Shown here: piece by piece, positions 58,788 to 59,678 of the stretch
Layout: each line of letters begins with the position of its first letter
Numbering within the stretch: position 1 is the stretch's first letter
Assembly: GCF_001956985.1 (NCBI RefSeq)
Contig: NZ_CP019082.1
Location: 3,472,001 to 3,536,000, forward strand
Origin: Paludisphaera borealis
Lineage (GTDB): Bacteria > Planctomycetota > Planctomycetia > Isosphaerales > Isosphaeraceae
Direction of reading: 5' to 3'
Length of the DNA: 64,000 nt
The notes under the pieces: generated by a model
What the model was told of the DNA's origin: nothing
Databases searched by the model: none
The model's input: only the letters and a program-made list of their open reading frames with translations
Made by a program: the position numbers and the translations under genes

Positions 58788-58824
58788 AAAAAAAGCCCCG
58801 GTGCCTGATAACAGGTCCCGGGGC
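58788..58824 (-). terminator. Intrinsic terminator or attenuator upstream of aroF
   Basis: GCCCCGG (58795-58801) pairs with CCGGGGC (58818-58824), with an inner CCTG/CAGG stem, and seven A residues on plus (58788-58794) give a U7 tail on the minus strand. It sits about 120 bp before the aroF start, reading in the same direction. The loop side GACCTGTT can alternatively pair with AACAGGTC about 75 nt upstream. Confidence 0.7.
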
Positions 58825-58941
58825 CTTTCGGTGTATGCTTGAATGTCGAGAGGGGTTCTAAGCGAGACCTCCGCACTCCGCCCGGCGACCTGTTGTGAGC
58901 CCGGTAAACACCCAGGCCCACCAGCCCTGATACGAGGCCGG

Positions 58942-58971
58942 ATAATAAGTCGCGAACACGGTGCGAGCCAA
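58942..58971 (-). promoter_or_regulatory. Candidate promoter for the aroF leader
   Basis: On the minus strand TTGGCT (58966-58971) and TATTAT (58942-58947) are separated by 18 bp; the -10 box matches five of six consensus positions. Transcription would start near 58935 and give a leader of about 265 nt with the terminator in its middle. Confidence 0.45.
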
Positions 58972-59129
58972 GCGAAAAACCCTTGCAAACGCGGTCGTCA
59001 GACCAATTCTCAAGCGGAAAAAAAGGCGAATTCGGCCAGGCCCGGAACTTGCGATCCGAGCCTGGTCGAACCAAACCTATGAAGGTTCCAAGAATGCGGC
59101 TTGCCCGACGGGCAACCCGTCGGCTGCCG

Positions 59130-59162
59130 TTAGGCCAGCCGCCCCTGGTTATGACTACACAC
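59130..59162 (-). CDS. Possible ten-residue leader peptide with perfect 12-nt Shine-Dalgarno
   Basis: On the minus strand AAAGGAGGTGAT (59166-59177), the full complement of a 16S rRNA 3' end, precedes a GTG at 59160-59162 by three nucleotides after the match (a normal distance from GGAGG). The frame encodes ten residues (MCSHNQGRLA) and ends in TAA. A hairpin CGGCTG/CAGCCG overlaps its stop and an eight-pair hairpin CCGACGGG-CAA-CCCGTCGG (59105-59123) follows. The strength of the ribosome binding site suggests a translated mini-ORF. No gene with a known link lies immediately downstream; aroF starts 460 nt further on. I do not recognise the peptide. Confidence 0.4.
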   Translation of the reverse strand: MCSHNQGRLA

Positions 59163-59678
59163 GCAATCACCTCCTTTCGATCTAGCCACCCCGCCGCCGC
59201 GAGAGTCCAGCCTCGCGCGACAACAGGCTCTAGTCCGTCGTGCCACGGTCGCACGACCCGAAAGTCGACCGAGCGTGTGTTCAGGCTCGGAACGACAACG
59301 TAACTGTATCCACCGAGGCCGTGCGGATCAACAGGCAAGATCCAAATACGCCGACGCGAAGCGACGGCCCCGCCCCCGAGTCTTATGACGACCTCACTCG
59401 GCACGATCGTCGACCGGACACCGCCACGGCCGGCGATTTCAACTTCCCCAACAAACTCCAACCCGACGACGCGACGAACGGAGGTTGGTCACTGTTCTAT
59501 CCAGATCGCCCAAACATCGTTCAGAACCAGGTTCAACCCGTTTCCCGGTCTCGTCCGGAGCGAGTCACTTCGACGAGAGCAGGGAACGAAACCGGTTCAT
59601 GTAGGAGGGGCCCGTGTGGGGCGGATCAGCCTCTCCCACTTTCCAGACTTCTTGCCCGTCCAGCTCCGCAGCTAGTGT

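Follow-up and report, generated by a model that had tools for sequence, protein, structure and literature searches.

What is the role of a reading frame of only ten codons that stands, on the minus strand of the Paludisphaera borealis genome, behind a perfect 12-nt Shine-Dalgarno (SD) sequence and upstream of aroF, the gene for DAHP synthase? The question arises from a stretch of 64,000 nucleotides (positions 3,472,001 to 3,536,000 of contig NZ_CP019082.1), referred to here as the window, in which an earlier note had pointed out the SD, the GTG-initiated frame and two hairpins behind it, and had suggested a conserved leader peptide or regulatory mini-ORF. The SD (59177-59166) and the frame (59162-59130) are indeed present, as are two hairpins 3′ of the SD, one at 59142-59096, which takes in the last part of the ORF, and one at 59067-59034. 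Read in codons, the frame is GTG TGT AGT CAT AAC CAG GGG CGG CTG GCC TAA, at normal spacing after the SD. A scan of the window against Rfam at gathering scores returned only tRNAs. The features of the locus are, from 5′ to 3′ on the transcribed strand:

59303 to 59331, minus strand: promoter-like sequence identified by eye, with a -35 box TTGATC (59331-59326), a 17-nt spacer and a -10 box TACAGT (59308-59303)
59264 to 59297, minus strand: P1, the most 5′ hairpin of the transcript among loci of the window's family (both-side changes in 5 of 6 pairs over 23 family loci, by RNAalifold)
59237 to 59257, minus strand: P2, hairpin with the CG-core loop ACCG; both-side changes in 7 of 7 pairs and 95.2% of cells paired over 51 class loci
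59182 to 59233, minus strand: P3, long hairpin with an apical loop CTGG opposite CCAG of the mini-ORF (pseudoknot; pair counts and permutation test)
59166 to 59177, minus strand: SD, AAAGGAGGTGAT (12-mer search of the genome, and counts of ORF and SD matches over 84 loci)
59130 to 59162, minus strand: mini-ORF with GTG start, peptide MCSHNQGRLA and TAA stop (all 84 loci read have a short ORF here)
59096 to 59142, minus strand: hairpin A, whose outer stem GCGGCT/AGCCGC takes in the ORF's 3′ end (both-side changes in 6 of 7 outer-stem pairs)
59018 to 59067, minus strand: hairpin B (59067-59034) and a T-run (59024-59018), a possible imperfect terminator (the hairpin covaries in the family alignment)
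58788 to 58971, minus strand: by our reading a separate aroF attenuator, made of a frame rich in Trp, Tyr and Phe (58971-58858) and a terminator (58825-58788)

Within its own genome the exact 12-mer of the SD, AAAGGAGGTGAT, has four copies (none for a reversed-pattern control over the whole genome), one of them at the mini-ORF locus; we read the other three as the complement of 16S 3′ ends, so that the locus would hold the sole exact 12-mer outside the rRNA genes. Its 13-nt form, AAAGGAGGTGATC, is present in 14 of the 24 loci from the window's family, and over the 84 loci read in detail (24 from the family, 40 from elsewhere in the class and 20 from outside the class) it is matched at all 13 positions in 28, at 12 in 34, the P. 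borealis locus among these, and at 11 in 17. Every one of the 84 loci has a start codon at a distance of 10-16 nt from the first G of GGAGG, and the frame that begins there is 8-17 codons long, 10-14 in 82 of the loci and 10-11 in the family; where several starts were possible, the script chose the one nearest to 12 nt. The same short-ORF test at random places in the same loci succeeded in 1145 of 15169 trials (7.5%), a comparison that does not amount to a probability because the 84 loci are related.

A 171-base query found the element in 24 of 25 genomes of the family (the P. borealis genome included); of 15 class genomes belonging to other families, one gave a weak match. R1, a covariance model built from 23 family loci, matched 174 of 397 class genomes, from which the 40 class loci outside the family were fetched, chosen for diversity; all 40 were re-found. 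A second model, R2, built from 51 class loci and including P2, matched 306 of the 397 genomes, once in 304 and twice in two; among the better class assemblies, 267 of 339 matched. In a sample of the phylum, R2 matched 92 of 392 genomes, each once, which by our count of the list comprise 36 of 40 inside the class and 56 of 352 outside it. The 20 outside-class loci read have SD, ORF and a P2-like hairpin, the last judged by eye because the script chose other hairpins in several of them. The Planctomycetales loci L119 and L122 match R1 at 169 and 165 bits. As a negative control, R2 was run on 30 alphaproteobacterial whole genomes, none of which gave a match at E ≤ 0.001 (best 0.011). R2 has no match in 91 of the 397 class genomes, some incomplete and some nearly complete (for example in families f7 and f9), and, as nearly complete genomes are among them, the RNA gene is common and not universal, although model searches over more than 40 genomes used strict filters that make absences soft. 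The earlier note had named restriction to this one genome, or a position inside an unrelated transposon end, as what would overturn its proposal; conservation across the class and in part of the phylum speaks against the first, and no sign of a transposon was noticed at the locus. The presence of the element in 24 of 25 family genomes, together with an ORF at the same spacing in all 84 loci where random places give 7.5%, argues that this conservation is not due to chance.

The unit has a conserved fold. P1, P2, P3, SD, ORF and hairpin A align in the 24 family loci (structure computed on 23), and class loci outside the family hold a compact unit of P2, P3, SD, ORF and hairpin A. When 41 proposed pairs were tested over 51 class loci on a MAFFT alignment that was not fitted to structure, 81.5% of the cells held standard pairs and both-side changes occurred in 34 of the 41 pairs (196 cells); none of 500 shuffles scored as high, and sliding the partners by 1-3 columns gave only 24-47% pairing. 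P2 is the strongest stem. Both parts of hairpin A are well supported (87.1% and 92.8% paired), with both-side changes also in 4 of 6 pairs of its terminal hairpin, formed around CCGACGGG; hairpin A, like P2, covaries. Within P3, one stem is well supported (89.7% paired, with 4 of 4 pairs changed on both sides), whereas pairing is intermediate in the upper part (57-76%) and weak in the outermost stem (47%). The P2 loop, ACCG in the window, is AACG or GACG in many far loci and resembles the loop of hairpin A (CCGACGGG), most clearly outside the class; one may speculate that the two loops bind one common partner. An alternative hairpin, CCGACGG/CCGTCGG, considered as a would-be second switch, showed no covariation when tested. 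At locus L018 (G009:C250), hairpin A contains an insert, and its terminal portion recurs as a second, partial copy some 180 nt downstream.

The fold reaches into the reading frame in two ways. In the pseudoknot, the P3 loop CUGG lies opposite CCAG of the ORF, and the pairs of this main register hardly vary (88-91% paired). Over all 51 rows, pairing of each loop with its own ORF scores 12.7 and cross-pairing 12.1, nearly equal because the family rows are almost invariant. The support comes from divergent lineages, in which other bases keep the complementarity (CTGGTTA/TAACCAG, TTGGTC/GACCAA, CTGGA/TCCAG, CTGGCG/CGCCAG, GCTACA/TGTAGC, GGCTG/CAGCC); in a permutation test on the 33 non-family rows, the score was 443 against a mean of 395.7 (sd 13), a value reached in none of 2000 permutations, relatedness being uncorrected. 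At the other end of the ORF, the stop codon sits inside hairpin A, in the internal loop, and its first base falls between the outer stem and the terminal hairpin in 50 of 51 aligned rows.

Is the frame, then, translated, and if so is the peptide its purpose? Starts are interchanged among the 84 loci (GTG in 59, ATG in 18, TTG in 7), as are stops (TAA in 41, TGA in 24, TAG in 19), and these exchanges, with the in-frame changes of length, argue for translation, so that the conserved mini-ORF is, as far as comparison of the loci can tell, very probably translated. One use of such a frame would be that of an ordinary mRNA for a functional decapeptide, with the RNA structure merely tuning its translation, and the retention of frame, start and stop in all 84 loci, along with a recurrent Cys or Ser near the start of the peptide and Arg near its end (MCS..NQRRL, ..QRGG., ..RRP..), speaks for this. 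Yet the peptides diverge between families, as in MCSDNQRRLA, MEYVCTSRRGGSA and MGSPNRRPSS, too far for the peptide to be an obvious product, and the apparently most conserved codons are those that sit in the pseudoknot and the outer stem; we regard a decapeptide messenger as rather unlikely, if worth keeping in mind.

The long SD itself invites another explanation, in which the RNA is a ribosome sponge or sensor that captures 30S subunits or masks anti-SD ends, the peptide being incidental, and in which a 3′ copy of the anti-SD shuts the SD in some lineages. The uniqueness of the exact 12-mer outside the rRNA genes would fit such a role, as would complementarity of the SD to sequence in the 3′ portion of its own RNA, such as GGTGATCCT/AGGATCACC at L095 and GGTGATCGA/TCGATCACC at L100. 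In a test of all 84 loci, 10 (counting two near copies) show this complementarity at p ≤ 0.03 where about 2.5 would be expected, but it stays at chance level in most and is convincing in a minority only. Moreover, nothing in a sponge would call for a stop codon with a set position in the structure, which is what 50 of 51 rows display, and we consider a sponge quite improbable; the 3′ stretch complementary to the SD would at most be a lineage-specific extra. As a separate observation, the sequence GATCACC, which belongs to the 16S anti-SD and is complementary to the RNA's own SD, follows the stop by about 40 nt in loci L079, L090, L091, L095, L099 and L100; by itself it is significant against shuffles in L090, L095 and L100 only.

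The genomic setting suggests, at first sight, a quite different role, since aroF lies downstream of the RNA in all 24 family loci, starting 162-630 nt after the SD. A cis-acting aroF leader, in which translation of the mini-ORF controls read-through into the DAHP synthase gene, alone or together with an aromatic leader peptide, was accordingly our first reading. It drew further support from five class loci outside the family, all in family f3, that also have aroF downstream, and from the weakness of the terminator within the family. A hairpin with a T-run within about 155 nt of the stop was found in only 9 of 24 family loci, and at the window's own locus (L005) this test failed, hairpin B and the T-run being 9 nt apart, so that read-through into aroF is possible there. 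Beyond the family, however, a terminator follows the RNA in 34 of 40 class loci and in 19 of 20 outside the class, that is, in 53 of 60 (controls 3-8%). At the 5′ end, most family loci show, by eye, TTGA.. and TA...T about 17 nt apart (commonly TTGATC-17-TATAGT), and similar boxes were seen by eye in several far loci; they may serve as the promoter. The RNA would be some 200-300 nt long by our estimate.

Neighbouring genes point the same way. The 35 remaining class loci of the diversity-chosen 40 have no aroF match within the stretch fetched, mostly about 2.5 kb downstream. Since mechanical picks of the downstream ORF were wrong in at least three loci (L064, L096 and L097, where aroF is the gene), only the neighbours checked with Pfam were used, at 20 of the 40 class loci; all 20 match a Pfam family (oxidoreductase, glycosyltransferase, DUF1559, CbiQ, ribonucleotide reductase and others), and 14 run toward the RNA in the opposite direction while six run away from it in the same direction. 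The downstream genes, which the earlier note had proposed to inspect in other species, thus differ outside the window's family, and the idea of a leader peptide for the following gene finds no support in the varied neighbours, the opposite orientation of 14 of 20 and the RNA's own terminator in 53 of 60 loci beyond the family.

What remains to be accounted for is aroF itself, which appears to have its own control. Between the RNA and aroF, a second frame (58971-58858, containing ..VFATYYPASYQGWWAWVFTG.., with no clear start codon or SD) is rich in Trp, Tyr and Phe codons; a 16-codon aromatic run was significant against shuffles (p ≤ 0.05) in 19 of 28 loci tested and not in the other nine. A further locus, L027 (G010), was too short for this test, aroF beginning only 162 nt after the SD there, which leaves no room for an aromatic attenuator. 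The sequence CAGGTCGCCGGG (58892-58881) recurs in many family loci and, by our reading, could pair with the left arm of the 58825-58788 terminator as a possible antiterminator. Frame and terminator together look like a classical aroF attenuator, and we read it as separate from the mini-ORF RNA because at the f3 loci L061 and L064, where it is also present, the RNA appears to us to terminate before it; the aromatic codons, once considered part of the mini-ORF RNA, were dropped from it. MCSHNQGRLA has none of the aromatic-pathway codons looked for in it. The earlier note found a simple link to aroF unsupported for lack of aromatic codons; the unit nevertheless lies 5′ of aroF in all 24 family loci. 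Since only five of 40 class loci beyond the family have aroF downstream, and since aroF appears to have an aromatic attenuator of its own, the mini-ORF RNA is probably a mini-mRNA that stands by itself and no leader of aroF, and we hold control of aroF by the mini-ORF to be unlikely.

Our preferred answer, to which we assign a probability of roughly 0.55, is that the locus is a usually single-copy, stand-alone RNA gene whose transcript is a mini-mRNA, with a fold that is switched by ribosomes translating the mini-ORF and with the RNA itself as the regulatory output. Comparison among genomes argues for the unit structure, the ORF, the hairpins, the pseudoknot and the copy number; the use of the promoter, translation in the cell and the switching of the fold are what we infer. 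In the proposed mechanism, the long SD (mostly 11-13 complementary bases) would load 30S subunits onto the GTG, ATG or TTG start, about ten codons would be translated, and termination would take place at the stop within hairpin A's internal loop, immediately before the terminal CCGACGGG hairpin. With no ribosome present, the P3 loop would pair with the central codons of the ORF, and hairpin A would be closed; a ribosome would have to melt the pseudoknot first and hairpin A's outer stem next, and translation would in this way switch the RNA between two shapes. The switched RNA, and not a downstream gene, would be the regulatory output, acting perhaps via the P2 and hairpin A loops, and the peptide would mainly be a timing device. 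A change of fold by a ribosome on the mini-ORF seems the simplest reading of what is usually a single copy, mostly a terminator of its own, a long SD, a paired ORF and a fixed stop considered together.

More tentatively, and as a possibility that we would not favour as it stands, the RNA may represent a new class of ribosome-operated housekeeping RNA, in which a ten-codon ORF with a hairpin-built stop is a conformational switch that reports translation capacity to a partner, possibly a protein binding the CG-core loops of P2 and hairpin A. If the proposal is right, an ancient RNA gene lies below every Rfam 15 gathering score (in the window and in 20 class loci scanned, the latter giving only a tRNA) and yet occurs in most genomes of the class, and what preserves an ORF of ten codons can be that it is translated and that this alters the shape of the RNA, not the peptide made. 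The element would then offer a usually single-copy object for testing the idea of translation for shape, and a caution against taking any short conserved ORF in front of a gene for that gene's leader.

Parts of this arrangement have parallels. Dual-function small RNAs, such as SgrS/SgrT and RNAIII, are regulatory RNAs that also encode a small protein, and the element resembles them as a small structured RNA that would also be an mRNA; their ORFs, however, encode longer functional proteins, whereas here some ten codons are themselves part of the pseudoknot and a stem. The ribosomal protein leaders of S15 and S4 are ribosome-entrapment pseudoknots, in which, as here, a pseudoknot encloses the SD and the start so that the 30S subunit must deal with it; unlike those leaders, the mini-ORF RNA has no ribosomal protein gene among its 20 Pfam-checked neighbours. 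In Staphylococcus aureus, extended SD motifs and small leader ORFs are reported (PMC13009471), and regulation by means of a longer SD pairing and a short ORF that is translated would be common to both cases; the S. aureus uORF described there acts on a downstream gene, whereas the planctomycete unit mostly ends in its own terminator.

The nearest known RNA family is CC2171 (RF01867), a Caulobacter sRNA, and one may ask whether the mini-ORF RNA is a diverged member of this alphaproteobacterial family. CC2171 is the best Rfam match of the window region (25.2 bits, E 0.0043) and matches 9 of 19 outside-class loci at E < 1, always at the element (best 31.5 bits, E 0.0026); conversely, several CC2171 loci are picked up by R2 at the corresponding place, with 22.9 bits at best (E 0.0008 in 0.19 Mb). 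Both RNAs start a short peptide right after AAAGGAGGTGATC, the sequence of a long SD followed at once by a short ORF being a feature of RF01867 that the mini-ORF RNA shares, and, by our reading of nine printed loci, CC2171 has the same 13-nt SD, a short ORF directly behind it and a terminator-like hairpin. These scores are nevertheless far below the gathering score of 75, a genome search with CC2171 gave no match at E ≤ 0.001 in 21 relatives although Caulobacter itself gave a signal, R2 matched none of the 30 alphaproteobacterial genomes mentioned above, and R1 scored at most 13.7 bits on 13 CC2171 loci. In the nine printed loci, no P2 or P3 was seen 5′ of the SD, and the ORF, MSH(C).., is longer, 20-26 aa in 73 of 78 loci (the non-planctomycete loci of L101-L180, scanned with a pattern that forced SD, start and MSH); of the other five, two are cut by contig ends. 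Homology, tried both ways, thus gave weak matches at the right place and none over an accepted threshold in either direction, and the common SD and start could explain the scores, which makes kinship with CC2171 very improbable in our view. The "sRNA" CC2171 itself looks, from its perfect SD, its MSH(C).. ORF and its terminator-like hairpin, like a mini-mRNA. CC2171 appears in a table of Mesorhizobium sRNAs (PMC5596092) and among families with improved structure (PMC11701678), and two Caulobacter ncRNAs predicted earlier, unnamed in the passages cited, are reported to be in fact translated (PMC4117421). Among the matches listed for the open-licence PMC literature on CC2171, on planctomycete small or structured RNAs and on planctomycete aromatic attenuators, the element was not recognised.

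Two general bacterial RNAs were also considered and set aside. The tmRNA (RF00023) of the genome lies elsewhere, at G000:C1:43852-44218, and scores above the cut-off, and the only candidate for 6S RNA (RF00013) is likewise elsewhere, at G000:C1:1937061-1937222 on the minus strand. That candidate scores 37.2 bits against a cut-off of 46.4 and candidates also stay below it in five other genomes of the genus that were searched; the 6S RNA of the genus seems to have diverged.
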